Below are positions 2-57,792 of a stretch of 64,000 nt of DNA, piece by piece. The notes under the pieces are model-generated. The model worked only from the letters and a program-made list of their open reading frames with translations. It was not told where the DNA came from and did no database searches. The stretch covers positions 62,001 to 126,000 of the forward strand of contig WGME01000005.1 of the NCBI GenBank assembly GCA_016125225.1, in the 5' to 3' direction. The stretch is from a bacterium. GTDB lineage: Bacteria; Planctomycetota; Planctomycetia; Planctomycetales; Planctomycetaceae. The position numbers and the translations under genes were made by a program. Each line of letters starts with the position of its first letter. Position 1 is the first letter of the stretch.

Positions 2-829
2 CTCCTGACCGCCAGCCGCAGTTTCGACGGCGGCGGATTTGCGGACGAACGACGGTTGCGGGAACGGCTGCAGGTGCTCGAGCGAGCGGGATTCACCCGG
101 CACTGGTCCGCCGCCACCATCGGCGGTGGCCTGCAGAACTACTACAAGCTGACGCCCGCCGGATTTCAGGCATTGTTTGGATCGGATGCCACTCCCCCAC
201 CCCGCTCGTTTTTCGCCGAGATCGCGCCGAGCCAGCTGGCGCATACCCTGGCCCTGGCTCAGGTCATCGTGACGACGAAGTGCGCGGCTTATGAACGCCG
301 GATCGTCATCGAACGCTTCTACCGTGAGAATGAATTGACGTTTGCGGTCGGCGATGCCCAGGTTCAACCGGACTGTTTCGTTCGGTTCACGGCGAGCGGT
401 AGGTCCTTCAACGTCGCCTTCGAGATCGATCGCAGCACTGAGACGGTCGACTCGCCGCGGGAATCGAGCTTGCGGCACCGGCTGATGACCTACGAGGCCT
501 ATCAGACGCAACTGCTGACGGATTGGCACGCAGGCGGCCGGGCTTGGGAGCGACCGCGGTTTCGGGTGGTGTTTCTGACGCTCTCGGTGGCGCGTGCCTA
601 TCACCTGTTGGCCGTGACAGCCCGGATCAACGGCGGTTCCGCACGGCGGCTGGTCTACGCGGCGACGCAGGACAGTTATCTCGGCGATCCGGAGCCGCTC
701 ACCGATCCCCTCTTCCTGGACCATCATGGCCACTGGCAGGCCCTGGTCAACCTGCATCCGTCGTCGAAGGCATTACGAGCCCCTGTTCGGTTGCGGCCGG
801 CAATCCCCGCTGACGGAGCCGTCTGGTAG
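2..829 (+). CDS. Replication-relaxation family protein, 5' end cut by window
   Basis: The reading frame is open from the first codon, so the gene begins left of the window. The visible part opens with a winged-helix-like segment (LRERLQVLERAGFTRHW, then YYKLTPAGFQAL). A mixed alpha/beta region follows in which PDCFVRF and FNVAFEIDRSTET resemble the conserved acidic strands of the replication-relaxation family (Replic_Relax), DNA-binding proteins of plasmids and integrative elements. A second member lies at 22200-23087, and there PDAAFLLELKG and VFFIEQDRAT match the same positions. The gene precedes a HerA-like ATPase, the partner also seen in the second copy. The exact role (origin binding or relaxation) is known only by family association. 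Confidence 0.7.
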   Translation, partial: LLTASRSFDGGGFADERRLRERLQVLERAGFTRHWSAATIGGGLQNYYKLTPAGFQALFGSDATPPPRSFFAEIAPSQLAHTLALAQVIVTTKCAAYERRIVIERFYRENELTFAVGDAQVQPDCFVRFTASGRSFNVAFEIDRSTETVDSPRESSLRHRLMTYEAYQTQLLTDWHAGGRAWERPRFRVVFLTLSVARAYHLLAVTARINGGSARRLVYAATQDSYLGDPEPLTDPLFLDHHGHWQALVNLHPSSKALRAPVRLRPAIPADGAVW

Positions 830-1012
830 CCTGTCCCCCACGCCTGCGTACGACTGCGGACCCCGCACGGCTATTATCCCGTGCCCCTTCGCCGTGACGG
901 CCGAGGAGGTCGGGCCGCAGGACCGAGACAGGGCGGGCATCCGCTTCGAGCAGGGGGCACACACTGACCGGAGCGGTTTTGCCGTGCGGGCGTGCCGCGC
1001 TACGCTGGCGGC

Positions 1013-3262
1013 ATGCAGTGGCTGTGGACCGCACCGGCCGACAATGCACGCGGTCCGCGTTACATGGAGAAGGCGCTCGCGGCCATTCATCAGGCACTGG
1101 AACCGGGGCAACGGGTGACTTTGGCGTACGGCACGCTGGATGGCCGCGTGGGTTTGCAGATTTCTTGTGCGAACGAGATTGCCACCCAGGTGGCCGGGCC
1201 GCTGGTCGCGAATTATCCCCAGTGTCCACTGACCATGGTCGCGAACGGAGATCAGACCACGATCTCTGGGCAGACTTGGATCATGGCCGCGGAGTTGGTG
1301 CCAGAGTTGTTTCCGTTGCTGCGGCATCCGCAATTCGAGGACCAGCTCAATCGGAACTTCGCCGATCCGATTGACAGTCTGCTGCGGGCCGTCCGACCGG
1401 ACCAAGGTCTGGACGTACGTCTGACACTGGTCGTGACCCCCGCCACGGATCGCCGGGTGATCCAGGCCCGCGAGGCGGTCCAACTCCTCGATCGCAGGTT
1501 CTTTCGCCGTCATCCCCGATTGGCGGACTACTTTGCCCGGACCGTGAGCCGCCCCGGCGGATGGTGGCGAGCGGGTTGGCTCGGTTGGCTGGCCTATCAC
1601 TCCCCTCTTCCTGACCATAGCCTGCTGGACACCTCAGCGAGCCGGCTGCACGAGCGTGAAGACCATCTGCAGGCAGCCGCCGCGAAAGTCGGCGGTCATC
1701 TGTTCGATGTCCAGCTGACCGTTGCCGTGACCAGTGCCAACGGTAACCATGACCAGGCTCAGGCCCGTCTGTCGCAACTGATCGGCGCACTGGGTGTGTT
1801 TTCGTCGCAGCGACTGACCAGGCTGCAGTGGCGTCGGGCGAGAGCTGGAAGCAGGGGAGTGCCGGCACCAAGATTCCTGTTGGCCCATGACGAAGTGGCG
1901 ACGTTGTTTCATCCGCCGACAGCGAGCGTCTCCGCCGAAGGCTTGCAGACCAGTGAGTTCACCGAACTGGAACCGCCGGCCGTGTTGTCGTCGGTTGAGA
2001 GTGGGGGAGTGGTCGTTCTCGGTCGCGTCCGGTTCCGGGATGACCAGCGGCCGGTTGCCATTACCCGTGATGCCCGCCGCCGACACGTCTACGTCGTCGG
2101 GGCCACGGGAACCGGCAAGTCGACGTTGCTGATTAACCTGATGGCTCAGGCCATGGCCCAGGGGGAAGGTCTGACCATGGTCGACGTCCATGGTGACCTA
2201 GCCGACAGTCTCCTTCAGTTGGTGCCACCGAACCGCACGAATGACGTAATCGTGTTCGATCCGGCAGGGGATGGCCTCGTCCCGTTCAATCCGTTGGCCT
2301 GTGCTGACCCAGGTCGCCGGGATCAGGTCGCTTCCGGGGTCGTGTCGGCCTTTCGGAAACTATACGACTCCTGGGGACCACGCCTGGAGAACCTATTGCG
2401 GTTCGCCGTGTTCGCGGTCATCGAGCGGCAGGGGAATCTGCAGGACGTGGTTCAGTTGCTGACCGATGCCCGTATCCGGGACCAGGTCGTGCCGCGCATC
2501 GAAGATGAAATCGTGCGCTCGTTCTGGCAGCACGAGTTCCAATCGTGGAACACGCAGTACCGCACCGAAGCGGTGTCGTCGGTGACGAACAAGCTGCTGC
2601 CATTTCTGACGAACAGCCGGTTGCGGGAGATCGTCACCGCGCGTCGAGCAGGTCTGGATCTGAGGCAGGTCATGGACCGGGGTCAGATCCTGGTCATCAA
2701 CCTGAGTCGCGGCAAACTCGGGCAGGACAATGCCACGCTGCTGGGGAGCCTGCTGTTGACGGCGATCGAGCAGGCGGCCTTGAGCCGGGCGGACCTGAGC
2801 CATGACCAGCGTCTCGACCATGGTCTGTTCCTGGACGAATTTCAGACACTGGTCACACCGTCGACGGCGATCATGCTCTCAGAATCCCGGAAGTATGGCT
2901 TAAATCTGGTTCTCAGCCACCAGCTGACCCGGCAGCTGGATGAACCGACGCGGCAGGCGGTGCTAGGCAACTGCGGCACATTCGTGGCGTTTCGGGTGGG
3001 AGCCGAGGATGCCGATCTCCTGGCTCCGGCGTTCAGCAAGTTCCCAGGGCAGCTGTCACCGGCGTGGCTGATGGGACTGCCGAACTATGTCTGCTACATC
3101 CGGATGCTGCTGGATGAGGGAGTGCCGAGTTCCCCGTTTTCGCTGCAGACATTACCACCGCCGACGGTGGGGGAGGACCGGAACGATGTCGTGCGACGGG
3201 TGTCTCGGAGGCGCTACGGGAGACAGTTAGATCGCGGAACAGCGGACGGAACTGCCGGTTAA
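1013..3262 (+). CDS. HerA/VirD4-like conjugation-type DNA-pumping ATPase
   Basis: A protein of about 749 residues resembling TraG/VirD4-type coupling ATPases of mobile elements. The first 340 residues form an unassigned domain. Then come a Walker A motif GATGTGKS (about 363-370), a Walker B-like strand with VDVHGDL (about 390), and the C-terminal LFLDEFQTL strand and arginine-rich stretch typical of HerA/FtsK-like motors. I see no transmembrane segment, unlike classical VirD4. ATG at 1013 was preferred to GTG at 992 because the latter lacks any ribosome site; neither is strong. The 183 bases upstream, after the relaxation gene, contain no other gene. It probably moves element DNA, either in transfer or in replication. 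Confidence 0.75.
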   Translation: MQWLWTAPADNARGPRYMEKALAAIHQALEPGQRVTLAYGTLDGRVGLQISCANEIATQVAGPLVANYPQCPLTMVANGDQTTISGQTWIMAAELVPELFPLLRHPQFEDQLNRNFADPIDSLLRAVRPDQGLDVRLTLVVTPATDRRVIQAREAVQLLDRRFFRRHPRLADYFARTVSRPGGWWRAGWLGWLAYHSPLPDHSLLDTSASRLHEREDHLQAAAAKVGGHLFDVQLTVAVTSANGNHDQAQARLSQLIGALGVFSSQRLTRLQWRRARAGSRGVPAPRFLLAHDEVATLFHPPTASVSAEGLQTSEFTELEPPAVLSSVESGGVVVLGRVRFRDDQRPVAITRDARRRHVYVVGATGTGKSTLLINLMAQAMAQGEGLTMVDVHGDLADSLLQLVPPNRTNDVIVFDPAGDGLVPFNPLACADPGRRDQVASGVVSAFRKLYDSWGPRLENLLRFAVFAVIERQGNLQDVVQLLTDARIRDQVVPRIEDEIVRSFWQHEFQSWNTQYRTEAVSSVTNKLLPFLTNSRLREIVTARRAGLDLRQVMDRGQILVINLSRGKLGQDNATLLGSLLLTAIEQAALSRADLSHDQRLDHGLFLDEFQTLVTPSTAIMLSESRKYGLNLVLSHQLTRQLDEPTRQAVLGNCGTFVAFRVGAEDADLLAPAFSKFPGQLSPAWLMGLPNYVCYIRMLLDEGVPSSPFSLQTLPPPTVGEDRNDVVRRVSRRRYGRQLDRGTADGTAG

Positions 3263-8900: not shown

Positions 8901-9838
8901 CCGTGGGCACGCGTTTAGTGGAGACGTCACGGGAGGTTTTGGGACTGATCTATCCCGAGGCTCCTGGCAATCCGCAGGCCAGCGCCGGCGACAATCACAT
9001 GATCCTCTCCTGGCAACCGCCCCAGGCCGACGGGGGCGCGCCCGTGACGGACTACGCCGTCGAATACAAACGCCATTCCGAGTCCTCGTATGCGACATGG
9101 GTCGACGGAGTGAGCACCGGCACCTCCGCGACTGTCAACGGGCTGGTCGCTGGCACGCTGTATGACTTCCGGATCACGGCCATCAACGCCCAGGGATCCG
9201 GCGCATCGGTCTTGCTCAGCGCCACGACGACGGGCACGGGCGTGTCTTTGCTGCCAACGACGGTCAGCCTCGCATCGTCACGGAATCCCTCTTCGGAGGG
9301 GGAGGCCCTCACTCTCACCGCGATTCTGACACCCTCGGCGGCCACCGGGACGGTGCTGTTCCAGGATGGCCTGCTCGCTCTCGGTTCAGCCCTGATCGGT
9401 CAGGGCTCCGGAAGCCTGACCCTGTCGTTGCTGTCGGTGGGCACGCATGCTCTGACAGCGGTCTACGCCGGCAATTCGACCTATTCCGGCAGCGTCAGCA
9501 ACACGGTGACCCAGGTGGTTCAGGCCGCCAGCAATTCGAGTGCCAGCAGCAGTTCCCCGCGCAGCCCGGCCACTGGCGTGGCTCGTGGCGGCGGACGGGC
9601 GAGAAGCGGCCTTTCTATGGTGCATCCTGCCCGGACCGGCCACGCCTCCGTGGCTGTCGGCAGCCACGCGCCGTCGGCCACCGAGCTGACCTTCGAATTA
9701 CCGATGCTCCTTCAGAAAATGCGGGACCGGCTCGCGGCCCGCATCGAGCGCCGCATTCTCGCACAACCGTCTGTCGCCGCCTTACTGCGTCGGATTCTTG
9801 AGCGTCTGAACGCTCGGATCGCCGCCCGCCGTCCCTGA
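5939..9838 (+). CDS. Secreted multidomain fibronectin-III / SGNH-esterase-like protein
   Basis: About 1299 residues with a signal peptide (MLRFVALVIPSLAVLVLSAL, cut after AQA). In order: a beta-sandwich domain (28-211), FN3 (215-305), FN3 (308-396), a second copy of the beta-sandwich domain (398-578), FN3 (580-669), FN3 (671-764), an SGNH/sialate O-acetylesterase-like domain (766-1003), FN3 (1005-1099), an Ig-like domain (1103-1193) and a basic tail. In the esterase domain GESNSGG gives the nucleophile Ser778, GIND a later block, and DGNH the Asp977-His980 pair. It probably acts outside the cell on acetylated glycans. A tight hairpin at 5910-5925 lies just upstream. Such cargo is unusual in a mobile island. 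Confidence 0.8.
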   Translation: MLRFVALVIPSLAVLVLSALPREAQAATLLQDSFTGTTIDPTQWTEIDPAGLGGTVGSVQQNGILTVANSWVASVWGSTALVSTSTFASGSLQISAKMTRGSDQLLGYGDTNFQSPGTSAFIIDLSGLVYALHWHNGVLVASNTNCGSYTAGATYTLATTGTGFDVYKNAGGGNVLLCSLTTSGHVSGKPVFLQSYGTASTFDDVLVTGPEPDPTPPGPPTGVTAAAGDTQATVSFSPPANNGWSAITTYTVTSSPGGFTATGSTSPITVTGLTNGVVYTLTVTATNAAGTSSGSSASNAVTPAVPTAPQPPTGVTATAGNAQATVRFSAPTNSGGAAITFYTVTSSPGGITATGATSPLTVTGLTNGVPYTFTVTASNAVGASTGSAASSAVTPMVPQVLFQDAFTGTTIDSSQWNVIDPAGTNIVQNGTLSVSHSYSGGAWGQTALASKATFRRSGLAISARLTRSSALLLGYGDYNFQSVGTQAYVLDLYGSSLVLLHFHNGSTVASKYCESYTAGATYTLATTGTGFDVYKNTGSGPVLQCGLTTPATMTDKPLFLQEEIGPGFVDDILVVGSLGVPNAPSGVTATAGNAQATVSFSAPTNDGGSAITFYTVTSSPGGFTATGATSPITVTGLTNGVPYTFTVTASNAVGTSTGSAASSAVTPNVPVTPDQVTGLVATGTNQQVLLGWEAPEDHGFTVTDYLLEYRTGGAGSWTTVADGVSTAVKAIVRGLVNSENYDFRVSAVNSVGTGTASTVVMASPRAITQLAFVINGESNSGGIGQNSDATADELAPRSAVQIMNLTSGLFDFEDLDIGANNLRDHAGLEGYYANSHGFELYLANAVEGHALPGFEQVYLVKTGQGGSTISQWNVGGTYWTKFLQRTAAAKAQLDDPTWVVWFSLGINDQIAGTPTSTFKANLIAHLQRIQADLPGAVIIMTGFEAMGYTAYTAALREVAAVEPNVFIIDTTAAALRDGNHWSYAGLKTVGTRLVETSREVLGLIYPEAPGNPQASAGDNHMILSWQPPQADGGAPVTDYAVEYKRHSESSYATWVDGVSTGTSATVNGLVAGTLYDFRITAINAQGSGASVLLSATTTGTGVSLLPTTVSLASSRNPSSEGEALTLTAILTPSAATGTVLFQDGLLALGSALIGQGSGSLTLSLLSVGTHALTAVYAGNSTYSGSVSNTVTQVVQAASNSSASSSSPRSPATGVARGGGRARSGLSMVHPARTGHASVAVGSHAPSATELTFELPMLLQKMRDRLAARIERRILAQPSVAALLRRILERLNARIAARRP

Positions 9839-17239: not shown

Positions 17240-18217
17240 TCAAATGACAATCCGTTCAATCTCATCCAGCGTGATCTCATCATTCCGCCGGTCGTAGAGC
17301 TTCGTCGTTTTGGCACTCGAATGGGCCGCGATCTGCTGGGCACGTTCGAGTGTGCCGCCGCCAAGCAGGTACGTCGTGATGCCGGTGGCCCGCCAGGTAT
17401 GACAGCCAATCCGGTCGGGGAGTCCTGCATCGCGGGCACGACGTTTGATCATCGCCAGGACTTCGCGGCGGCTGATCCGTCGTTCCGTAAGCCGTTTGTG
17501 TCGGTCGACCGTCCGAAAGAGGGGATCCCATTTAGCGAAAATGACGCCGGCCGCAGCGATATAAGCGTCGAGGTAGGCTTCGGCCGCATGGTGGGCCGGG
17601 ACTTCGTGGAACTTGCCGCCCTTCTCGTGCAAGCGAAACCACCAGCGTTTGCCATCCGGATAATAGTCGTCTCCATTCATTCCAATGACGGCCGAGACTC
17701 GCGCGAACGAATAGACCATCACTGCCACGAGAGCCCTGTCCCTCAAGCCCGCGATGGTCGAGACGTCAATGGCATCGATCAATCGCCGTGCCTGTTCGGC
17801 TGAGAGTACCGGTGTCTTCCCGCGCGTGACCACGTGCTTGGGGCCGCGGACCGAAGAAGCGGGATTGAGCGGAAGCGCCTGCCCGATCACCAGATAATCG
17901 AACAGCATGCGGATGGCGGCCAGATGCTGTTTTACGGTCGGAGCGCTATGCGACGCCGAAATCTCCTCAATGTAAGCGGCTACGAGAGGAGGGGAGAGTT
18001 GCTCCAGCCGCAGTTTGTGGTGTTCGCACCAATCCGCGAACCGAACGACGGCCCGCGCATATGCTTCGCGGGTGTTTCGGTTCCGAATGTTCGCCGTGAA
18101 GAACTCAATGACACGGCGACATGCTTGGTCGCCCGCGTCAAGGAAGAGTCGCGGCAGGTGCCCAGCGATGAGCGCCGGTAGTTGACGGCTGGTGGCGATG
18201 ATGGGCTGATCGGTCAT
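17240..18217 (-). CDS. Tyrosine recombinase (first integrase)
   Basis: A 325-residue tyrosine recombinase. The N-terminal SAM-like core-binding domain (NRNTREAYARAVVRFADWCE, SAPTVKQHLAAIRMLFDYLV) precedes the catalytic domain. Visible active-site residues are Arg in SFARVSAVIGM, Lys in LHEKGGKFHEVP, HTWRATG (HxxR), His in AAHSSAKTT and Tyr in KLYDRR. It is thus intact. A 12-bp palindrome with a 6-base spacer sits 31 bases upstream of its start (18248-18277) and could be its core site or operator. It differs clearly from the integrase at 25856, which supports two separate elements. Confidence 0.88.
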   Translation of the reverse strand: MTDQPIIATSRQLPALIAGHLPRLFLDAGDQACRRVIEFFTANIRNRNTREAYARAVVRFADWCEHHKLRLEQLSPPLVAAYIEEISASHSAPTVKQHLAAIRMLFDYLVIGQALPLNPASSVRGPKHVVTRGKTPVLSAEQARRLIDAIDVSTIAGLRDRALVAVMVYSFARVSAVIGMNGDDYYPDGKRWWFRLHEKGGKFHEVPAHHAAEAYLDAYIAAAGVIFAKWDPLFRTVDRHKRLTERRISRREVLAMIKRRARDAGLPDRIGCHTWRATGITTYLLGGGTLERAQQIAAHSSAKTTKLYDRRNDEITLDEIERIVI

Positions 18218-18277: not shown

Positions 18278-18531
18278 CGAAGAGTAGCGGACAGTGAACG
18301 ATCCTGTCGATGCAACGCGACCACATCAGCCAGCAATCGGCAAGCCGATTTACCCCATCTGTCGGTCGCGAACGATCCGACCATCAACTGCGTCAAACGT
18401 CAATCAGATCGTCAGTCAAGCACACTTGTCATCCGCTCTTGCGCGGCGGTCCGTGCCGGTGGCAGGCTGGTCGTGATGCAGCATGTCGCAGCATCACGAC
18501 CGGTCATTCCCAACGTAGCAGGAGTCCGAAA

Positions 18532-18882
18532 ATGGCACGAACCCAGCGTCCCGCCCCAGAAGCTGAGTCACCGCAGCCCATTGCAGAACGCAGCTCTCGC
18601 CAGCCTGAAAAACGCATTGGCCCCTTCGCTGGCGGCGTCGGCGTCGCCGTCTGGTTGAATCAGGCGGAATTGCCGGACGGCGGCACGCGCACCTTTCGGT
18701 CGATCACGGTCGCCCCCCGCCGCTACTTCGACAAGCAGTCAAATCAGTGGAAGGACGCCCCGTCCTACAACCCCACCGATCTCCCAGCTTTGATCTTCGC
18801 CTTGCAAGAAGCCCAGGCGTATTGTTTCACCACTCCCCTACCAGGCGGCGAATTGGAAGATTCGGAACCGACTCCGTTCTGA
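18532..18882 (+). CDS. Small element protein, first of three related copies
   Basis: A 116-residue protein with a Pro/Gln-rich start and a compact domain: VAVWLNQAE, TFRSITVAPRRYFDKQSNQW, then NPTDLPALIFALQEAQAYCF. The pattern (strand, strand with TFxSxxxxRxYxD, W, D-L helix) recurs at 19128-19349 and 23516-23797, so these are one family. AGGAG lies seven bases before the ATG at 18532; upstream codons are excluded. A strong terminator follows. The function is unknown; a small nucleic-acid-binding role is plausible. Confidence 0.65.
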   Translation: MARTQRPAPEAESPQPIAERSSRQPEKRIGPFAGGVGVAVWLNQAELPDGGTRTFRSITVAPRRYFDKQSNQWKDAPSYNPTDLPALIFALQEAQAYCFTTPLPGGELEDSEPTPF

Positions 18883-19463: not shown

Positions 19464-20285
19464 ATGCTGACACTCAAGTTTCTTCAGTTCATCTGGCAAA
19501 TGCTCAAAGAGGACAAATCCTTCCAGGTCGGAATGATTGCCGGAGCTGTGGGAATTGTCGGTGCCATTGGATGGTTCATCTTTTTTCCCGCCCTCGTAAT
19601 CGACCTGTCGATTCTGCTTATCGTTACGGTCAACAGAATTACCAAAGCGATCCTGTCCAAGCTCGCGGAGCAACGGGCTCGTGAGCTGCGGATCCAGCGG
19701 GAAGCCGAAGAGGCGGACCGCTTTCACAAAGCGCAGGAACTAGCCCGAATTGAAGCAAATAGCCTTGAGAATCAGCAGAAGCGGGCAGCTGCCATCGCCG
19801 CACTGGAGCCTGCCTCAAATCAAATCCGCCGCTTCTGGGCGAAACATCACCTCATTCTAAACGAAGTATGTCCTCTCAGATTGCTGAACGAAGAGATTCA
19901 GGCGTCAGTCTCCGAAGCATCTCCGTTTGAGTCTCTGCAGCAACTGGCAGCTCTCAAGGAAACCTTGATCCGCAAGGTTGTCAGGTTCGAAACCGAACAA
20001 CTCTATGAGAAGTGGTACGAATACATTTCTGAGGCAGTCCCCCGCGACGAATTTGACCGTCTGATGCACGAGGCGGAAGAACAATCTCGCACCGCAGATG
20101 AGTACGGTCGACGATTGATCGAACTCGGGGAGTTCCTTTCCGAGGCGGCGGGTCCAGCCGCCGTGAAATTGCACAAGAAACGAGAAACGGATCGCGTAGC
20201 CGACTACGAAGCCATGTTCGCGGATGATGCCGAGAACCCCTTCGACGAGACTGAGGAGGACCGCAGTGCATCACGAGTTGGCTAA
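19464..20285 (+). CDS. Membrane-anchored coiled-coil protein of the second module
   Basis: About 273 residues from ATG 19464. A hydrophobic pair of segments (VGMIAGAVGIVGAIGWFIFF and ALVIDLSILLIVTV) is followed by a long charged helical region beginning KLAEQRARELRIQREAEEAD and continuing to the acidic C-terminus. It overlaps the start of the ATPase gene by 20 bases, so the two are coupled. It may anchor that cytoplasmic motor, which has no membrane segment of its own. The upstream TTG start at 19410 is possible but unsupported. A small hairpin with T-run sits just before, near 19425-19450. Confidence 0.6.
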   Translation: MLTLKFLQFIWQMLKEDKSFQVGMIAGAVGIVGAIGWFIFFPALVIDLSILLIVTVNRITKAILSKLAEQRARELRIQREAEEADRFHKAQELARIEANSLENQQKRAAAIAALEPASNQIRRFWAKHHLILNEVCPLRLLNEEIQASVSEASPFESLQQLAALKETLIRKVVRFETEQLYEKWYEYISEAVPRDEFDRLMHEAEEQSRTADEYGRRLIELGEFLSEAAGPAAVKLHKKRETDRVADYEAMFADDAENPFDETEEDRSASRVG

Positions 20286-21996
20286 ACCTAATCTCTCCCT
20301 GCGCATCGGCTCGACTGGCCCAAAACGCACGATCGAGTTTGGAGACGAAGAACTCGCCACCCACATGACCGTCTATGGGGGGACCGGGAAGGGAAAGTCG
20401 AAGCTGCTGGAATTGATCATTCGTCAGTTGATCGAACAGCGGGCCGGAGTCTGTGTCATCGATCCGCATGGGGACCTCGCCGAGGATCTGCTCGCCTGGA
20501 CGATGGAGCGGTACGACGCGACCGACAAGGCCGTCTATCGCCGCATCAATTACTTTGAACCGGGGTCGAACACCCACCGCTTCAAATTCGATCCCTTTCA
20601 GTACAACGAACTGAGTGGGGAGAGTTACGAAGACTGGTTGAAGGCCAAGGTGGAATCGGTCGCCCGAACGATCATCCGAAAACAAGGCGAAGCCGGCTTC
20701 GAAGGCAAACCCCGTCTGGAGCGATTCCTGACGAACGTGTTGTATGCCTGCGGCGTTCGCGTGAATGCCAACGGTGACCACTTGGGATTGGGTGATGCCT
20801 TGGTGCTGCTCGATCCTAGCCATCCGTCCCACGAACCGATCTATTCCCGCATCGCACCCCATCTTCCATCAGAGATTCGATCCGACTTCGAGAAAGTGAG
20901 GGGAAGCAAACCCCGTCAACAGGAAGACTGGGTCGAATCGACGATCAATCGGCTGCGCTCGTTTCTGTCTCCTGCAGTCAAAAGCCTGTTCGCGGGAGAA
21001 GCCCGTCAGACGCTGAACTTCCGCGACATCATCGAAAAACAGGCAGTCATGCTGGTGAATCTCCGCCGGACCCGGAGTTTCACGATCGATCAGGGCAATG
21101 CCATCGGCGGCATGTTCATCAACGAGATTCTGGAAGCGGCACAGATCGCATCGAGAACCGCCAGAAGGCCGTTCTATCTCTTCATCGATGAAGCGAGCCG
21201 GTTCGTCGGCAAAGACCTCATGGATGCCCTCGCGCAGTTCCGGAAGATGAAGCTGTCGTTGTGCCTGGCCGTTCAGGACCTGTCGTCATTGAAACTCGGC
21301 GAGATCGACATGACGGCCAAAGTCGTCAGCCAGTGCGGCATCCATATCACCTTCCAACAGAAGTATCCTGAAGATTTGGAAGTGCTCGGGAATCTGTTCG
21401 GCTATCCGCTGATTGACTTCACGCCTCACACGCAGGAAGTCGACCGCTTTGACGGGTATGAAGAGATCCAGACCACTGATTACACCTCGTCGAAGACGAC
21501 CGGAGAGAGCGAGTCAGCCAGTGAGAGCCGTGCGCAGCGCTGGCCGAAGAAAGACATTATGGACCCGGATACGTACACCGACTCCAAGGGTTTTTCCAAG
21601 AGCAAGACGGAATCTCGGACCGAAGGCTCCACGCTGAAAACCGGCCATCTCACCAAGTACCGGACCGAGGTGCAGGACAGCGGTCGGCTGAAGCGCTCCG
21701 TTGACGACCAGTTTCATCAGATCAAGCAATTGCTGCGAACGCTCGGAAAAGGGGAAGCTGTCGTGTCCGTCGATGGCACTCCCCCGTTTCCGATGCAGGT
21801 GCACAACGTGTCGACGCCGTTTCCCACACTGGACGACACCCGACGCTTGAATCTGGTCGACGGCTTCAAGAAGTTTCTGGGCAAGAATCACCCGTACTGT
21901 TTTGTTCCGTCCACCCAGGACGACGAAGAGCAGCGGTTGCTCCGCTTTATCGGCGACAAACAGAAAGAGGCGGGAGAATCGATTTTTGGCGTGTAG
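20266..21996 (+). CDS. HerA/VirD4-like ATPase of the second module
   Basis: A 576-residue ATPase. GTG at 20266 is chosen because GAGGAGG lies seven bases upstream; the earlier ATG at 20224 lacks one. Walker A GGTGKGKS is at about 38-45, CVIDPHGDLAEDL at about 63-75, and a FIDEASRFV strand at about 305. A Ser/Thr-rich low-complexity linker (residues about 415-460) precedes the last domain. It is shorter than the ATPase at 1013, without its large N-terminal domain. It is probably the DNA motor of the second element, coupled to the upstream membrane protein. Confidence 0.8.
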   Translation: MHHELAKPNLSLRIGSTGPKRTIEFGDEELATHMTVYGGTGKGKSKLLELIIRQLIEQRAGVCVIDPHGDLAEDLLAWTMERYDATDKAVYRRINYFEPGSNTHRFKFDPFQYNELSGESYEDWLKAKVESVARTIIRKQGEAGFEGKPRLERFLTNVLYACGVRVNANGDHLGLGDALVLLDPSHPSHEPIYSRIAPHLPSEIRSDFEKVRGSKPRQQEDWVESTINRLRSFLSPAVKSLFAGEARQTLNFRDIIEKQAVMLVNLRRTRSFTIDQGNAIGGMFINEILEAAQIASRTARRPFYLFIDEASRFVGKDLMDALAQFRKMKLSLCLAVQDLSSLKLGEIDMTAKVVSQCGIHITFQQKYPEDLEVLGNLFGYPLIDFTPHTQEVDRFDGYEEIQTTDYTSSKTTGESESASESRAQRWPKKDIMDPDTYTDSKGFSKSKTESRTEGSTLKTGHLTKYRTEVQDSGRLKRSVDDQFHQIKQLLRTLGKGEAVVSVDGTPPFPMQVHNVSTPFPTLDDTRRLNLVDGFKKFLGKNHPYCFVPSTQDDEEQRLLRFIGDKQKEAGESIFGV

Positions 21997-22199
21997 GGGC
22001 TTGACGTCGCAGTTTCTTTGGGTCTAATGATGTCACGCTCCTTTGGGAGTGCCTCTAGTGACGGCCGGATTGCGGACGACGCTTACGAGCGTTGCAGCAC
22101 GGTTGCCTGGTTGTAGTGACGTCCCTCGGGACACTGTGATGCCGAAGTACCCTGGTTTTTCAGGGTGCTCCGGCTCCTTTGGTTTCTAGGGGCGACGTG
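21997..22199 (+). other. Structured intergenic segment with hairpins and direct repeats
   Basis: Two hundred bases between the ATPase and the replication-relaxation gene. The decamer GCTCCTTTGG occurs twice (22037-22046, 22173-22182) and TAGTGACG twice. Hairpin ACCCTG-GTTTTT-CAGGGT is at 22149-22166, with shorter pairs near 22037 and 22125. Repeats between a motor and a relaxation gene suit an origin, oriT or leader RNA. Confidence 0.4.
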
Positions 22200-23087
22200 A
22201 TGGTGACTGACCGCGATCTCGCGATTCTTTCGGCGCTGGCCAAATACTACGTGCTGGCCCGACCGCAAATTCAGCGGCTCTGCTTCGAGAGCGACGTCAG
22301 TGGTCGGGTTACGCGCAGGCGGTTGCAATACCTGGTCGACGCTCGGCTCATCAATCGTCAGCAAATGCTGTTCTGCGCTCCCCACGGGGGCATGCCCGCG
22401 ACCGTGTATTTCCCCTCCCCGCTCGGAAACGAGCTACTGGCGAGACATCTCGATGACGAGCGACTCTTGCTGACGCCTTCCATCGCTCCGATCCAGCATC
22501 ACATCCCCCACTGGATCGCCGTCGCGGAATCGCACATCGCGTTCGATAAGGGCGCGGCGGCGGCGGCGGGAGTGACAATTGATCCCTGGATCAATGAGTG
22601 GGATGTCGTGAATAAAGACGAATCGGCTCCCGAAAAGCGTTTTCGACTCTATACCCTCATCAGCGAAACGCCCCGACTAGTGTGCGCCCCGGACGCGGCG
22701 TTTCTGCTGGAACTCAAAGGTTTCCGCAAGGTCTTCTTCATCGAACAGGACCGGGCCACCACCGGGGCCAGACAGGTGGCCGAAGGCAAGTCCCGCGGAT
22801 ACGCAGCGCTGGCCGAACGAAACCTGCATCACCGCATGTTTCCCACTTCGAACGTCGAAGCCTTCACGGTCCTCTGCATCACGCCGGATCAGCGACGACG
22901 GGATGCTCTGAGGCTGGCCATGAACAACCGGCCCGCCGCCAATCTCTGGCGGTTCGCGACGTCGCAGGATCTGGCCGGTGACCCTTTCCGCAGTCCGATC
23001 TTCCACCCCTGCCTGGGCGAGCCGACATCCATCATCAAGCCGTCCGCAGGGTGTACCACAACCGGTCCGAGGGGGGACACCCCCTGA
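22200..23087 (+). CDS. Replication-relaxation family protein of the second module
   Basis: A protein of about 295 residues. ATG 22200 follows AGGGG; the TTG at 22179 is not favoured. The N-terminus is a winged helix (DRDLAILSALAKYYVLARPQ, RVTRRRLQYLVDARLIN). The core has APDAAFLLELKGFRKVFFIE, the acidic strands of the Replic_Relax family, with EQDRATTGARQV following. It is the intact counterpart of the truncated protein at 2-829. The order here is ATPase then relaxation gene, the reverse of the first module. A large inverted repeat lies 45 bases downstream, a natural target. Confidence 0.75.
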   Translation: MVTDRDLAILSALAKYYVLARPQIQRLCFESDVSGRVTRRRLQYLVDARLINRQQMLFCAPHGGMPATVYFPSPLGNELLARHLDDERLLLTPSIAPIQHHIPHWIAVAESHIAFDKGAAAAAGVTIDPWINEWDVVNKDESAPEKRFRLYTLISETPRLVCAPDAAFLLELKGFRKVFFIEQDRATTGARQVAEGKSRGYAALAERNLHHRMFPTSNVEAFTVLCITPDQRRRDALRLAMNNRPAANLWRFATSQDLAGDPFRSPIFHPCLGEPTSIIKPSAGCTTTGPRGDTP

Positions 23088-23131
23088 TGTTCTGTCCCCT
23101 AACCGTAACCATTGATCCTAAGGTTACTTAT

Positions 23132-23276
23132 GCCGTGCCAGTGGCTCGCTCTCTGACGATCGCGGCCCCTGGCCCCATATATGCCGTGGTCATCCGCTCG
23201 CAGGCTCGCTTGCCTTCCATCCGGGTCGCTCCGGCTCGGTTCCGTATATGGGGCCAGGGGCACACCACGGCACGGC
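23132..23276. promoter_or_regulatory. Large nested inverted repeat downstream of the replication-relaxation gene
   Basis: Inner arms of 17 perfect bases (23165-23181 and 23245-23261) surround a 63-base loop, and outer arms GCCGTGCC (23132-23139) / GGCACGGC (23269-23276) enclose them. TGCCGTGGT (23182-23190) can also pair with ACCACGGCA (23264-23272), giving an alternative fold. No gene is in this segment. It is a candidate oriT, replication origin or structured RNA. Confidence 0.5.
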
Positions 23277-23354
23277 TGGATTTTGCAGGTGGCCACTCCG
23301 TTCCCTGTCGGGGCAGGTCCGACGGGTGGGTTTTGTTTCCTTCCGCTTTTCACT

Positions 23355-23486
23355 ATGAAAACGCCAGGACGGTGTGCATGCCGCCCATGCACGGTCAAAC
23401 GCGCGAAACGTCGTCCCACAACACGCTTGTTCGATGCGACGGTTCTCGCGTTGTTCGTCATTCTGGGAGCCGCGCAGTTCGCGTGA
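23355..23486 (+). CDS. Possible 43-residue protein with C-terminal membrane tail
   Basis: A short frame starting MKTPGRCACRPC, basic in the middle, with a hydrophobic end FDATVLALFVILGAAQFA. No ribosome site is seen. Its first codons overlap a small hairpin (GTGCATG/CATGCAC, 23374-23380 and 23386-23392). It lies immediately before the small family gene at 23516. It may be a real tail-anchored peptide, or chance. Confidence 0.3.
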   Translation: MKTPGRCACRPCTVKRAKRRPTTRLFDATVLALFVILGAAQFA

Positions 23487-23515
23487 TTCCCTTTATATCT
23501 CCTTCCTCTTTTGCC

Positions 23516-23797
23516 ATGACAGACAAGAAGAAAAAGGCCGCGGATGAAGCCCAGGCATCCAACGCTCCCATTAAGGTCATCGTGCTGGAAGACGTGTCGG
23601 CTTCAGTGTTCGAGCGAAAGTATCTGATGCGCGGCGAGGAGCGGACGTTCTACAGCGTCAGTTTCTCCCGTTCGTATCGGGATTCCCGCGGCGAATGGAA
23701 GTACATCAAGTCGTTCAATCTCGAAGACCTCGGGAAAGTGATCTCGGTCGCCCAACAGGCGGATGAGTTCATTCGGCAACAGCCGGGCATTTCCTGA
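23516..23797 (+). CDS. Third copy of the small element protein family
   Basis: A 93-residue protein with a Lys-rich start (MTDKKKKAADEA), then VSASVFERKYLM, RTFYSVSFSRSYRDSRGEW, YIKSFNLEDLGKVISVAQQA. The TFxSVxxxRxYxD-W and D-L patterns match the copies at 18532 and 19128. It is the cleanest copy, so the family domain is about 65 residues. It is unassigned, but the strand-rich core with basic residues suits nucleic-acid binding. Confidence 0.65.
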   Translation: MTDKKKKAADEAQASNAPIKVIVLEDVSASVFERKYLMRGEERTFYSVSFSRSYRDSRGEWKYIKSFNLEDLGKVISVAQQADEFIRQQPGIS

Positions 23798-25457: not shown

Positions 25458-25637
25458 ATGCTCAGTATCAAAAGTGCATCGACGAAACCGTGCTTCATCT
25501 GCGGTTCTCGCGAGAAAACGGTGGACGTGACGTTCGCCGACAAAACCTTCCGAGGCGTGCTGTGCCTCAATCACATCCACGAAAAGCTGAAGGAGGTGCC
25601 GCATGCTGCGAGTCAGCCAAGTGGCAAGCCGGCTTAA
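25458..25637 (+). CDS. Small cysteine-containing protein
   Basis: A 59-residue protein with CFICGSREK and, 28 residues later, CLNHIH, a CxxC...CxxH arrangement compatible with a zinc site. ATG 25458 follows AAGGAG, whereas the upstream start in this frame lacks one. Its end overlaps the excisionase gene by 35 bases, so the two are translationally coupled. Confidence 0.6.
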   Translation: MLSIKSASTKPCFICGSREKTVDVTFADKTFRGVLCLNHIHEKLKEVPHAASQPSGKPA

Positions 25638-25827
25638 TCTGTCGGCGTCCAAGGTGTACCAGCTGATTGACAGTGGACAACTGCCGCATCATCGGTTGGG
25701 GGTAAGTATCCGTGTCAGCGAGGAGCAGCTGACTGCCTATCTGACGGAAACGGAACGGAGACGCAGCGAGCCCGATCCGCCAAGACCCAAGCTGCCGCGC
25801 CCCCGTCTCAAGCACATCAAGCTCTGA
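25603..25827 (+). CDS. Excisionase-like helix-turn-helix protein
   Basis: A 74-residue protein with the Xis/AlpA-type HTH: LRVSQVASRLNLSASKVYQL, then the wing-like DSGQLPHHRLG, and a basic Pro-rich tail. AAGGAGGTG lies before the ATG. It is next to the integrase at 25856, converging on it, the usual partner for directing excision. The family also includes transcription factors. Confidence 0.8.
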   Translation: MLRVSQVASRLNLSASKVYQLIDSGQLPHHRLGVSIRVSEEQLTAYLTETERRRSEPDPPRPKLPRPRLKHIKL

Positions 25828-25834
25828 TCGAAAT

Positions 25835-25856
25835 GCCCGCCCAGGGAAGGACGGGC
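25835..25856. terminator. Hairpin between excisionase and integrase ends
   Basis: GCCCGCCC (25835-25842) pairs with GGACGGGC (25849-25856) with one mismatch. It lies between two convergent genes and touches the integrase stop. It is short but well placed as a bidirectional terminator. Confidence 0.45.
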
Positions 25857-26854
25857 TATCCGATCGCCTTCTTCGCCTGATCCAGCAGATACAGCGGTGA
25901 CTGGGACAAGTGCTGATAGACGGAGGCGACCATCGCCGGATTGGCATGGCCCATCAGCACCCCGACCGTGACCGGATCGACTCCAGCTTTCAACATCCGT
26001 GTCGCGTAGCCATGCCGAAAGTCATAGAGGGCGTGCCAGTGCCCAGTCTTCTTGCCGAGCCGCCGCATCAGACAGTTGATGGCGAATGTTGTCCACGGAG
26101 TTCCATGAGCATTACGCAGCAAATGGCCTTCCGGGTGCTCATCGATCAGTCGCTTCACAATTTCCAGCGCCTCGCCGGGGAGATAGACGACCCGGACCTT
26201 CTTCTTACCCTTCGATTCCTTCACGGGAAAAACGAATCGCTGGTTAGTTGCATCGAAGTGACGGGCTTCGGCCCGGATCAGCTCCTGCGGGCGACCACCG
26301 GAGAGCCAGGCAAGCTTCAGCAGGTCGCGGTACTGGGGTCTTTTGACCGCCGCCAAAAACTCTTCGAAGACCGCGGGCGTGACGGGACGGTCTCTGTTCT
26401 CCGCTGCCGGGACTTCCAAATTGGTGACAGGATTGGCCGTGATGTATCCCTGCTTCGTCGCCCAGGTGAGGCACCGCTTCACCGCACGCAGGTAGTTCCG
26501 GCGAGACGTGACGGAGAACTTGTATCCGTCGACCCACTGCGTGACATGCAGGGGCAGCAGATCGGACGCCCGCATGTCCGGATACTTCTCCACGAACCGC
26601 TGCAGACGGTACTGGAACCACCCGTAGGTCTTTACGGAGCGGTTGTTCTGCACCCACTCCAGAAACGCATCGATGATCGCAGCGAGCGAGTCAGAGTTGA
26701 CGACGGGCCGGTTCTTGAGCTGCTTCTTCAACGAGACCGCCCGTTCGACGGCTTCTTCCTCGGTGCAGCAACCGAGATTGTGCTGCTTGCCTGCGATCTG
26801 GATGTACCAGAGACCGCGGCTGGCGCGAAAGAACGGCTTCGGAAAATGAGGCAT
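25856..26854 (-). CDS. Tyrosine recombinase adjacent to tRNA-Arg (second integrase)
   Basis: About 332 residues from ATG 26854, chosen because GGAGGG precedes it; the frame extends 25 codons further without support. Order: an N-terminal arm-binding-like domain (PHFPKPFFRASRGLWYIQIA), a core-binding region (YLRAVKRCLTWATKQGYI), and a catalytic domain. Active-site candidates are Arg in LSGGRPQELI, Lys in ESKGKKKVRVV, YDFRHGYAT (Arg-His), GHANPAMVASVY and the Tyr of that strand. The His of the usual HxxR is Tyr, a variant known in this family. It lies 130 bases from the tRNA 3' end, as expected of a tRNA-targeting integrase. Confidence 0.9.
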   Translation of the reverse strand: MPHFPKPFFRASRGLWYIQIAGKQHNLGCCTEEEAVERAVSLKKQLKNRPVVNSDSLAAIIDAFLEWVQNNRSVKTYGWFQYRLQRFVEKYPDMRASDLLPLHVTQWVDGYKFSVTSRRNYLRAVKRCLTWATKQGYITANPVTNLEVPAAENRDRPVTPAVFEEFLAAVKRPQYRDLLKLAWLSGGRPQELIRAEARHFDATNQRFVFPVKESKGKKKVRVVYLPGEALEIVKRLIDEHPEGHLLRNAHGTPWTTFAINCLMRRLGKKTGHWHALYDFRHGYATRMLKAGVDPVTVGVLMGHANPAMVASVYQHLSQSPLYLLDQAKKAIG

Positions 26855-26984
26855 TGCGAACCCTCCAGAACATGGTGAACCGGAGCGGGCCGGAAGGCTC
26901 GCGGCCCCGTGACCTGTTGACGCAGGCACGGGGCGTTCTCTGACAAATTTCTCTGACCTACTGACTGCCGTCGTCGTAAGTCAT

Positions 26985-27058
<74 letters not shown>

Positions 27059-29935: not shown

Positions 29936-30868
29936 ATGCAATTGGGATTTGTGAGTGCAATTCTGGCCGATATGGACCTGCGCGATGTCGCCCGAAGTGC
30001 TCGAGAACTGAACTACGACTGCGTGGAGTTGATGTGCTGGCCGCCGGGGAAAGCAGAACGCCGCTATGCCGGGGTAACGCATGTCAACGTTGTCGATTTC
30101 ACCGAAGCCAAAGCGGATGACGTTCGCAGCGTGATGTTTGATGCAGGCGTGTCAATCAGTTCACTGGGGTACTATCCCAACCCGCTCAGCCCGCATGTGG
30201 AAGAAGCCGAAGTTGCGGTGGAACATCTCAAACGGGTGATTCTCGGAGCCGAGATGCTCGGGTTATCACGAGTTACAACCTTCATCGGCCGCGACTGGAC
30301 AAAATCGGTTGATGACAATTGGCCACGATTTCTGGCCACCTGGACGCCTTTGATTCAGTTTGCCGAAGATCATGGCGTTCATATTGGTATTGAAAATTGC
30401 CCGATGCTCTTCACCAAGGACGAATGGCCGGGGGGCAAGAACCTTGCCATTTCACCGGCGATCTGGCGGCGAATGTTTAATGACATTCCTTCGAAGAACT
30501 TCGGCTTGAATTACGATCCGTCGCATCTCATCTGGATGCAGATGGATTATCTGCAACCGATGCGTGAGTTCGCGGATCGTTTGGTCCATGTGCATGCCAA
30601 AGATGTCCGCATCGATCGGCACAAACTGAACGACGTGGGCATTCTGGCCCATCCGAACACCTATCACACACCAAAATTGCCCGGCTTGGGGGATGTGAAC
30701 TGGGGCCAGTTCTTCTCGACGCTGACCGATGTTGGTTACCGCGGGCCGGTCTGTGTGGAAGTCGAAGATCGGGCTTATGAAGAGTCCGCCGCCGCTCGCC
30801 GGGCGTCACTCAGGCAATGTTCGACTTATCTGAGGAACTACATCCCCCGCCGCGACGCGGCGTCATAA
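29936..30868 (+). CDS. Sugar-phosphate isomerase/epimerase-like TIM barrel
   Basis: A 310-residue protein of the AP-endonuclease-2/xylose-isomerase-like TIM barrel. Metal ligands are expected in strands such as [30 protein letters not shown] and VCVEVEDRA. It resembles many planctomycete sugar isomerases and epimerases of uncertain substrate. ATG 29936 was chosen; the GTG at 29906 adds ten residues without support. A second family member is at 47506-48522. Confidence 0.8.
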
Positions 30869-30879
30869 GAAAGGCAGTC

Positions 30880-30973
30880 AGCCGCAAAAAGGCACAAAAG
30901 GCTCAAAAAAAGCAGCAAAATCAAGAATCATTGGATGCGACTTGAATCCTCTTCTTTTGTGCCTCTTTGCGGC
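30880..30973. repeat. Inverted repeat of purine-rich intergenic type
   Basis: Arms 30881-30900 (GCCGCAAAAAGGCACAAAAG) and 30954-30973 are complementary in 19 of 20 positions around a 53-base spacer. The right flank continues with CTGCGTTTCTCCGCGACC-like sequence, a composition that recalls dispersed intergenic repeats of planctomycete genomes. It could also act as a bidirectional terminator between the convergent genes. Confidence 0.55.
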
Positions 30974-31007
30974 CCTCTTTCTGCGTTTCTCCGCGACCTC
31001 TGCGTTC

Positions 31008-39980: not shown

Positions 39981-42900
39981 TTAACTGACCGGTTGCAGAT
40001 CGGCCGGGGTTGTCGTGGTGGTGGACGGGCCGTCATCCAGTCCCAGGTCGTCATCTACGTCCGGTTTGCGATCCAGTAATCGGAAGATCCAGGCTTCGGC
40101 TTCCAGGGTTAAAGTGAACGCCGCCGGAATCAGGAAGAGGGTGAAGATCGTAGAGATCAACAGCCCGCCGAGCACGACACTTCCCAGACCGCGATAAAGT
40201 TCGCTACCGGCACCGGGGAAGAGCACCAGCGGTAACAGGCCGAGCACCGTTGTCATGGTCGTCATGAACATCGGGCGGATACGGGAACGCACACCCTCGA
40301 TGACTGCTTCCTTGGCATTCACCCCATCCTGACGGATCAATTGCAACGCCTGGTCCACAATCAGAATCGCATTATTCACCACGGTTCCGATGAGAATCAC
40401 GAAGCCCAACATGGTGAGCACGTCCAGAGCTTGCGGCGGTTGTCCCTGCCACATTAAGTAGACGCCGAGCAGTTTAAGACCCACGAGGCCGCCGACCGCA
40501 CCCAATGGCACGCTGAAAATAATAACGAACGGATAGACCCAGGATTCATACAACGCTGCCATCAGCAGGTAGGTAATGAGCAGCGCCAGAATGACATTGA
40601 ATCGCAAGGCATTCCATGTGTTATTCAGCTTGTCTGCCGTACCGGCCAGACTGATGCGGTAGCCTCCATCGAGCGCCCCACTGGCTTCCAGCGGGCCGAC
40701 GACCTTGTTCTGAATAATGCTCAAGGCCTCTTCCAGAGCCATTGTTGGTGGTGGAGTCACAGCGACAGTAATGGCACGTTCCCGCTCACGGTGATTCACC
40801 TGTTCGGGACCACTGGATAGCTTCACATCAGCCAGAGCGGCCAAGGGGATCAGTTGGCCCGTGCGTGTGGCGATGGGCAAGGATGCGATATCCTGAGTCT
40901 GTTTGGCGAACTCATCCCGACCACGAATCGAGAGATCGATTTTGTCAGCCCCGAGGTAATAATCACTGGCATAGGCCCCATCGACGAGGGCATCGACGGT
41001 ATAACCAAGGTCGGCCGCGCTCAGTCCCATTTCGGCACTTTGCAGCAACTTCGGTGTGACATGAATTTCCGGGCTTGAGAGATCGAGGCTGGGCACCGGG
41101 CGAGCTTGCGCGTCGGGAATCAGGGCAAAGATCGGTAGCAGGCCATCGGGTGTTCCGGGAGGATCGCCGCCGAGAATCCGGCCGCCAAGTTGGACCAGTT
41201 TGGGAAGATCCGGGCCGGTAATTTCGATGTCGATTGTTCGACCGGCGACCAAGCCTTGAGAGAACAAGCTGGATTGGAACGCCACCGCGAATGTTCCCGG
41301 CAATTTCGCTCCCAAGGAACGAACCAGCGGAATGAGTTCCGCAGCTCGGGTGGGATCGAGCGACCGCACCCCAATGAAGACCTGCCGCCCGCGTGCGACA
41401 AAGAAGAAGTCACCAATCACAGGTGTCTTCCCATCGGTCACTTTGGGGTCGTCAGCGTCCACATCCCAATAGGGGCGGAGTTCGTTTTCGGCGAACTGGC
41501 CCATTTCGGTCAGTTCGTCGAGGTTGTAACCGGGGGGAGGCAGAAGAATCCCGAAGACCAGGTTGCGGTTCCCGTTCGGCAGATATTCGACCTGGGGCCA
41601 CATCGTCCAGGTCGCGAAGCCACATGCTGCCACCAAGATGCAAATGGTTGCAAGGCGAGTGAACACACTGCGCTGAATCAGTTGATTTAATCCCGTGACC
41701 GCTGCAGTGAACCAGGAACCAATCTGTGCAATCACGGCCGCAAGACCGTGGAATTTTTCTTCCCCATGGACCGTTCCCTTGGGATCAGGAATGCCCCGAA
41801 TCTTACCGTCGACCCGTCGCAGGCCGCGTCCCATGATGCGGGAAGCCGCTACCGGAATCACTACCACAGAAACGATTAGTGACAGTCCCACGGCGGCACT
41901 AATCGCAAGGGCAATATCGCGGAAGAGTTGTCCGGCTTCCTCCTGTACGAAGATGACCGGCAGAAACACCGCAATCGTGGTCAGAGTTGACGCCGTAACG
42001 GCTCCCCACACCTCCTGAGTGCCACGGACCGTCGCGGTCAGTGGATCTTCACCATGCTGATAGCGTGTGTAAATGTTTTCGAGGACCACCACGGCATTAT
42101 CGACGAGCATACCGACGGCGAACGCCAGTCCCGCCAGACTGATGACATTCAATGTCCGTCCGAGAACCGCGAGGATCAGGAAGGTCGCCACGATACTGGT
42201 AGGAATCGCAAGCCCGATCACCAAAGCACCACGGGCAAACCAGAAGCCGGAAAGAATGATGAGGCCCAGACAGATGGCGAAGAACCACGGTGAAATGTAA
42301 ACCGAGGCTACGCCGCTGGCGAGAATCGCCGGTGCTAATACCAGCGTACGGTGATTGAGATGCAGAAAGATCATTAGCACGGTCATCGTCAAAGCACCGC
42401 CGAGAAAGATGTTCTCGCGTACGAGACCGATGGCCGAGTAGATGTATTCTGTTTCGTCATAGACCTGTGTCAGTTCCAGGCCACGTGTTTTCAGAATTCC
42501 GTTGTTCAATCGGTCATTGGTTTCGCGCAAGCCGTCCATCACATCCAGCACGTTGGCACCATCCTCACGCAGGCAGTTGATGGCAATGCTCGATGAACCA
42601 AAACGGCGGACCAGTCCATCGGGCTTCTTGTAGCCCATCTGGACAGAAGCGACATCGCTGACATAAACCGGTTTGCCATCGCGAACCGCGAGCAGTTGGC
42701 GTTCCACCTGTTCTGGTGAGCGAAACTGGCCGAGTGTCCGCACGACCCAGCGCCGTTTGCCTTCCCAGAAATCGCCCCCCGAAGTGTCTTCGTTCTGGCC
42801 CCGCAAAACCGCCCGGACGTCGCCGATGGTCAGTTGTCGGGCTGCGAGCAGTTCCGGGTCGACGACGACCTGTAATTCATCTTCCAGACCGCCGATCACA

Positions 42901-57456: not shown

Positions 57457-57792
57457 TCACTGGCACGACTCGGGCGACAGCAATTCGACGGCGTTTCCCG
57501 ACGGATCGCTGATATACACAGATTCAGTGCCGTCGCGGTGCCGTTTCAGCGGGGCAAATTCATGGGCCTTGGGGGTTGCGAATCCCAAATGGGGAGGATG
57601 CTGCTCGGGAATGACTAAGGCAATCCCCACGTTGTCAAATTTCAACAACGCCCAGGTCGCATCCTGGTAGCTCACCTCACAGGAGAATGTGGCACGATAC
57701 CATTCCACTGATTCGGCGATGTTCTGCACGGAAATCGCCACATGGTGGAGCCGGTCCAGGGTTGTCGTGGTGTTCGCGGTGGCCGTCGTCAT
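57457..57792 (-). CDS. VOC-family protein (glyoxalase/epimerase-like)
   Basis: A 111-residue single-domain VOC protein. LDRLHHVAISVQNIAESVEW gives the first strand and metal His, LKFDNVGIALVIP the middle, and VYISDPSGNAVELLSPE the last strand with its Glu ligand. VOC enzymes include glyoxalase and methylmalonyl-CoA epimerase; the substrate is not readable. It lies just upstream of lipA on the same strand direction but is separate. Confidence 0.8.
   Translation of the reverse strand: MTTATANTTTTLDRLHHVAISVQNIAESVEWYRATFSCEVSYQDATWALLKFDNVGIALVIPEQHPPHLGFATPKAHEFAPLKRHRDGTESVYISDPSGNAVELLSPESCQ

Follow-up and report, generated by a model that had tools for sequence, protein, structure and literature searches.

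The nested inverted repeat at positions 23132–23276 of the DNA stretch analysed here (64,000 nt, hereafter the window) is very probably an origin of transfer (oriT), the site at which an integrative mobilizable element would start its passage to another cell by means of its own nicking enzyme. This reading, made at the level of sequence, is based on a gene neighbourhood and an architecture like those of pAM373-type MOBC plasmids, on arms that are conserved and covary in relatives, on the independence of the repeat from gene orientation and side, and on the nearby genes for a Replic_Relax protein, a type IV coupling protein (T4CP), an integrase, an excisionase (Xis) and a tRNA. The first-pass annotation of the window had offered an origin of transfer, a replication origin or a structured RNA; the first of these options is now strongly supported, while the RNA is disfavoured by the small number of G-U pairs.

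The nested repeat and its genetic neighbourhood

The repeat spans 145 bp (forward-strand coordinates) and lies exactly where the first-pass annotation had placed it. Its inner arms (23165–23181 and 23245–23261) are 17 bp long, 100% complementary and separated by a loop of 63 nt (23182–23244) with sub-hairpins. The 8-bp outer arms described there (23132–23139 and 23269–23276) are likewise 100% complementary, but the real helix is longer: in the fold, 23132–23144 pairs with 23265–23276 over 12 bp, with a single bulged A at 23140. The spacers are asymmetric; the longer one, between the two 5′ arms (23145–23164), holds a copy of CGCTC (23147–23151), and more copies are found in the loop (23195–23199 and 23228–23232). 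An alternative pairing that had been noticed earlier is genuine, as the 3′ outer arm contains CCACGGCA, a pairing partner for TGCCGTGG at 23182. Of the perfect inverted repeats of 16 bp or more in the 64-kb window, no other has a long loop; the remaining three listed have loops of 3–6 nt. Its nested score of 25 was reached by none of 200 dinucleotide shuffles (shuffle maximum 17), and neither were the RNA-fold z-scores of −4.83 (plus strand) and −5.21 (minus strand) reached in 200 shuffles. Another nested inverted repeat, with a score of 24, lies at 30868–30990, directly after a gene ending at 30868 and near a ferrochelatase gene.

As the first-pass annotation stated, the repeat adjoins genes for a relaxation protein and an ATPase. 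It begins 44 nt past the stop codon of a Replic_Relax gene (22179–23087, forward strand; PF13814, E = 2e-16, over the cut-off) coding for a relaxase of the MOBC kind, which is preceded by the gene of a HerA/TraG-like coupling-protein ATPase (20224–21996, forward strand), with DUF87, TraG-D_C, T4SS-DNA_transf and TrwB_AAD_bind over their cut-offs. To call the segment gene-free was right in substance, given that the conserved small gene begins only at 23516, although long open reading frames, e.g., 23051–23797, do cross it. This small gene (23516–23797, forward strand) encodes a 93-aa protein without a Pfam family, whose homologues are found beside the repeat at three other loci (L003, L004 and, by eye, L077). 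It seems to represent a family of small proteins with a motif like VSASVF...SFSRSYKD..GEWKY, which inspection by eye also placed in the C-terminal portion of a 190-aa protein (18310–18882) and twice in L004 (6612–6929 and 6899–7282).

Downstream of the repeat, the Pfam scan also revealed a methyltransferase-like protein. Further on are the genes for an excisionase-like protein (25603–25827, forward strand; TIGR01764, E = 2.8e-13) and a tyrosine integrase (25856–26929, reverse strand; PF00589, E = 4.1e-18), the latter beside a tRNA-Arg(acg) gene (26985–27058, reverse strand), which is the probable attachment gene. A second, Xer-like tyrosine recombinase is encoded at 17240–18217 on the reverse strand. 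In L004 (8015–9668), the integrase gene adjoins a tmRNA gene, suggesting that the RNA gene used for attachment differs among related elements. Sixteen nucleotides of the tRNA gene (27012–27027) recur with 16/16 identity at contig positions 41698–41713, ~20.3 kb left of the window. The element would thus span ~47 kb, with a tentative boundary there; searches with the tRNA-side and left-side flanks gave no clean empty site, and the element ends are accordingly tentative. No VirB4 (PF03135) match was obtained in the genome, and neither a VirB4-like nor any other channel protein was detected by Pfam in the scanned subset of the element's open reading frames. We therefore call the element mobilizable and not self-transmissible. 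An 11-nt string of the repeat loop, TCGGTTCCGTA (23236–23246), occurs also in the putative tRNA attachment core (27015–27025, E = 2.3), and several other copies of the repeat carry CGGTTCCG near the matching spot; the shared letters possibly arose by chance.

A second gene pair of this kind is present in the same island (56–3262), where a TraG/TrwB-like T4CP gene comes after a Replic_Relax gene that starts before the window, at contig position 61921. Arms of 10 bp, CCCGCACGGC and GCCGTGCGGG, are found between these two genes at 862–990, and this might possibly be a second oriT. The repeat is weak, since 5 of 300 shuffles reached its best nested score, which included a further surrounding arm pair. 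A protein with an ABC-three-component CTD12 domain is encoded at contig positions 57687–58643 (window ~−4313 to −3357) and, judging by its domain, would be defence-type cargo inside the putative element.

Copies beside related planctomycete relaxase genes

A close relative comes from a Planctomycetaceae MAG, where the repeat is 92% identical over 170 nt and the relaxase 89% identical. In another relative, whose relaxase is 50% identical, the same place is taken by a nested repeat that differs in sequence. A nested repeat with a score of at least 22 was present within 420 nt downstream at 21 of 37 relaxase loci (the window included; L019, with its stop codon missing, and L017, with too little downstream DNA, were left out), whereas none of 740 shuffles and none of 36 upstream stretches reached that score. 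Seven further loci were added by a covariance model, with the repeat downstream and inverted in L011 and upstream in L015, L016, L021, L024, L025 and L026. In total, 28 of the 37 loci carry sequence-divergent copies, and nine (L018, L020, L022, L029, L032, L033, L034, L039 and L043) have no such repeat in the sequence examined. The usual plan consists of an outer arm, a spacer of ~20–30 nt, an inner arm, a loop of 25–88 nt with hairpins, an inner arm, a spacer of 0–15 nt and an outer arm. A search of viral contigs returned no relative.

Six relatives could be aligned, the window not being among them, and their arms show double-sided changes in 10 of 31 pairs. The covariation score was 0.284 against 0.097 for shuffled alignments (0 of 500 reached it) and at most 0.065 for slid ones; kinship inflates the shuffle verdict, but sliding likewise gave far lower scores. 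Without being given the structure, RNAalifold recovered the same nest and the loop hairpin. Arms that are conserved and covary in related elements were among the checks named by the first-pass annotation, and both properties were found.

The covariance model R1, built from these six relatives without the window, gave 26 matches in 170 family genomes, including one to the window itself (23124–23276, forward strand; 52.5 bits, E = 1.1e-7 per genome). Five of the matches are training loci, which leaves 21 independent ones; a relaxase gene lies within 1.5 kb of 16 of them and within ~2.3 kb of two more (18 of 21). For the remaining three, no relaxase was found nearby. L059, close to the end of its contig, has a T4CP gene. 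At L065, the only neighbour of note is a small protein that, in our own reading, resembles the 93-aa one, and neither relaxase nor T4CP was found within 9 kb. The match in L069 is surrounded by dehydrogenase genes and is possibly a false positive. Two loci, L031 and L013, gave no model match at E 0.001 though both score at least 22 in the nested-repeat scan. A phylum-wide R1 search of 392 genomes under stricter filters returned only two already known genomes. An intact-looking nested repeat was also seen in L077 (genome G257, 9175–9354) by a small 93-aa-like protein, and the search for a relaxase or T4CP out to 9 kb gave neither; the repeat may be a relic or belong to an element mobilized in trans.

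Several features inside the repeat recur among its copies. All 36 copies of CGCTC in 18 sequences are on the same strand, the opposite one having none (L006, L010, L011, L041, L042 and L043 were dropped here, and from the arm counts of 17 loci given below, as duplicates or for doubtful register), and these short directional repeats occupy the loop and the long spacer. The six aligned relatives have an invariant unpaired A in their outer 5′ arms, equivalent to A23140 of the window, and columns 16, 49, 139 and 181 of their alignment change together. The arms carry four related motif copies, such as GC(A/C)AGGG and its complement, which gives the outer 5′ arm a second possible partner in the inner 5′ arm. 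This predicted pairing generalises the alternative pairing of the first-pass annotation.

From this architecture, we propose that the element would excise at tRNA-Arg and that its Replic_Relax relaxase (MOBC, putatively of the PD-(D/E)XK type) would bind the repeat, with a winged helix-turn-helix on short repeats such as CGCTC and/or on the arms. The relaxase would then choose and nick one strand within the nested repeat, and the TraG/HerA-like ATPase would couple that strand to a conjugation channel, probably one provided by a helper, for transfer. The inverted arms may serve in recognition, in cruciform or hairpin formation and in strand rejoining in the recipient.

Transfer origin, transcript or replication origin

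It is improbable that the repeat is a structured non-coding RNA or an untranslated-region element of the mobile element, such as a small RNA for mobilization, even if its stable multi-branched fold and its strand-specific conserved motifs would suit such a role, and even if RNAalifold found compensatory changes in the internal hairpins too, as a folded RNA would show. An example of this kind exists in SGI1, which, according to a passage of PMC9299015, needs a self-encoded small RNA for its mobilization. The pair types speak against it. Among 976 paired cells (31 pairs in 32 copies, after six opposite-strand matches of 38 were dropped), 910 are Watson–Crick, 9 G-T, 17 A-C and 40 other, in an alignment that was made by R1 and therefore leans towards the R1 structure. 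The inner-stem columns show up to all four Watson–Crick types and almost no G-T. RNA helices normally hold far more G-U; the near absence of G-T thus points to an inverted repeat at the DNA level and not to an RNA helix, and the wealth of Watson–Crick types without it fits selection on both strands. In the arms of the 17 loci, one of 22 non-Watson–Crick positions is G-T on the gene strand, and by our own count 10 of the 22 would read G-T on the other strand (outer-stem A-C mismatches), so that this set alone would also suit an opposite-strand RNA; the larger set is low in G-T-type pairs on both strands. In addition, the repeat stands downstream or upstream of the relaxase gene and is inverted relative to it in L007, L011 and L037, and it thus has no fixed place in any one transcript. 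Rfam matched only the tRNA in the window at the gathering threshold and nothing at the nested repeat in five loci at E values up to 1, and there was no sigma-70-like promoter in 23000–23600.

Quite unlikely, in our view, is a replication origin (rolling-circle double-strand or single-strand) of the excised element, served by the same nicking enzyme. The Pfam name Replication-relaxation would agree with it, and an excerpt of PMC5714925 states that such enzymes and the sites they nick can have more than one function; the relaxase is, however, accompanied by a coupling-protein gene, and pAM373, which has the same arrangement, has an annotated replication initiator elsewhere. Replication could be an additional function of this site and not an alternative to transfer. 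That a mobile palindrome (MITE-like) or a terminator stands there by chance is hardly credible. The 92% identical repeat of the close relative sits in a 2,487-nt block averaging 84.5%, the bases just outside the arms differ, and terminator-like stems are predicted nearby, all of which could be expected of such elements. Yet the repeat is single copy in its own genome, its loop has 63 nt and no T-run follows the nested repeat itself; relatives keep the same gene association despite diverged sequence, some of them with the repeat upstream of the relaxase. An oriT is the reading we retain.

Relation to known MOBC systems

The relaxase of the window shares with the MOBC family (TraX of pAD1, MobC of CloDF13; PF13814) the PF13814 match and the P-D ... 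E pattern. P171, D172 and E189 are invariant in 26 sequences, and D191 and K204 nearly so. The classical motif has K where the window family nearly always has D, at residue 191, two after E189. BLASTP revealed no significant similarity between the window and pAM373 relaxases, and a profile comparison was weak (probability 6.7%, E = 0.0054, N-terminal part only); the two are linked by their matches to PF13814 (E = 2e-16 and 5e-6, the latter more exactly 5.2e-6) and not by direct similarity. Searches with the window relaxase among plasmid proteins gave no match, and among sequences of solved structures (PDB) nothing relevant. AlphaFold models of the relaxase alone and of A2 had a pLDDT of 31, too low to use. 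A passage of the review PMC12857230 places TraX of pAD1 in the PD-(D/E)XK family, with an N-terminal winged helix-turn-helix and a direct-repeat binding site distant from nic, and an excerpt of PMC7117660 names TraX as the pAD1 relaxase, related to that of pAM373.

The plasmid pAM373 is typed as MOBC in PLSDB and has an annotated replication-relaxation protein and a TraM-recognition (TraG-like) protein. Between the genes of these two, we found a nested repeat with outer arms of 18 bp, a spacer of 17, inner arms of 25 bp, a loop of 27 and a spacer of 12 (span 142). The oriT of pAD1 (oriT2) and pAM373 is reportedly located in a large inverted repeat of ~140 bp (Francia and Clewell, 2002). That study is cited for inverted repeats in oriT in passages of PMC5587640 and PMC6414798. 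Two further plasmids, from E. hirae (outer 19, inner 23, span 146) and E. mundtii (outer 17, inner 18, span 166), have nested repeats of this plan between the same two gene types; PLSDB assigns no relaxase type to either.

In PMC12857230, MOBC relaxases are described as poorly understood, restriction-enzyme-like enzymes for which a covalent intermediate with DNA has yet to be observed. The experimental MOBC oriT data that we encountered in the literature concern Enterococcus, and a literature search that covered few subscription papers found no earlier description of planctomycete relaxase elements or of replication-relaxation with oriT, nor one under pAD1 oriT2. Dozens of divergent planctomycete oriTs that can be aligned computationally would offer natural variation for finding nick and binding sites. 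With such a family, the DNA-structure hypothesis can be tested and similar elements can be sought by covariance model; it also suggests that Planctomycetota exchange DNA. It is tempting to go further, in a combined proposal that we hold only tentatively and think rather doubtful as a whole: the nested repeat would be a general MOBC oriT signature across phyla; in planctomycetes, the four coupled arm motifs would pair in two ways, as a nested cruciform or as two side-by-side hairpins, so that the relaxase would read a DNA shape or switch and not a fixed sequence; and transfer would proceed via a channel without a recognisable VirB4.

Compared with other systems, the putative element resembles SGI1, a genomic island described as mobilizable and as having an oriT and mobilization proteins of its own. 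The SGI1 relaxase is not known to be related to MOBC. The closer parallel is pAM373, which, like the window, has a nested inverted repeat of ~140 bp with two arms per side, unequal spacers and a small loop hairpin, adjoining the genes of a Replic_Relax relaxase and a TraG-like protein. The repeats themselves have no sequence similarity, and R1 gave no match in pAM373, the likeness being one of plan. The repeat of pAM373 stands between the T4CP and relaxase genes, whereas that of the window follows the relaxase gene; short direct repeats lie outside the nest in pAM373 (by eye) and inside it in the window (CGCTC); and the motif shared by inner and outer arms, in four copies, is seen in the window but, by eye, not in pAM373. 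The hosts and vehicles differ as well, since pAM373 and pAD1 are pheromone plasmids of Enterococcus faecalis, and the window represents an integrative element of Planctomycetota. On sequence grounds, we thus regard the repeat as a putative oriT of the known MOBC kind in a new group, Planctomycetota, with features absent from the Enterococcus examples compared. What is new is its presence and diversity in this phylum, the strand-specific internal CGCTC repeats and the four-copy arm motif.
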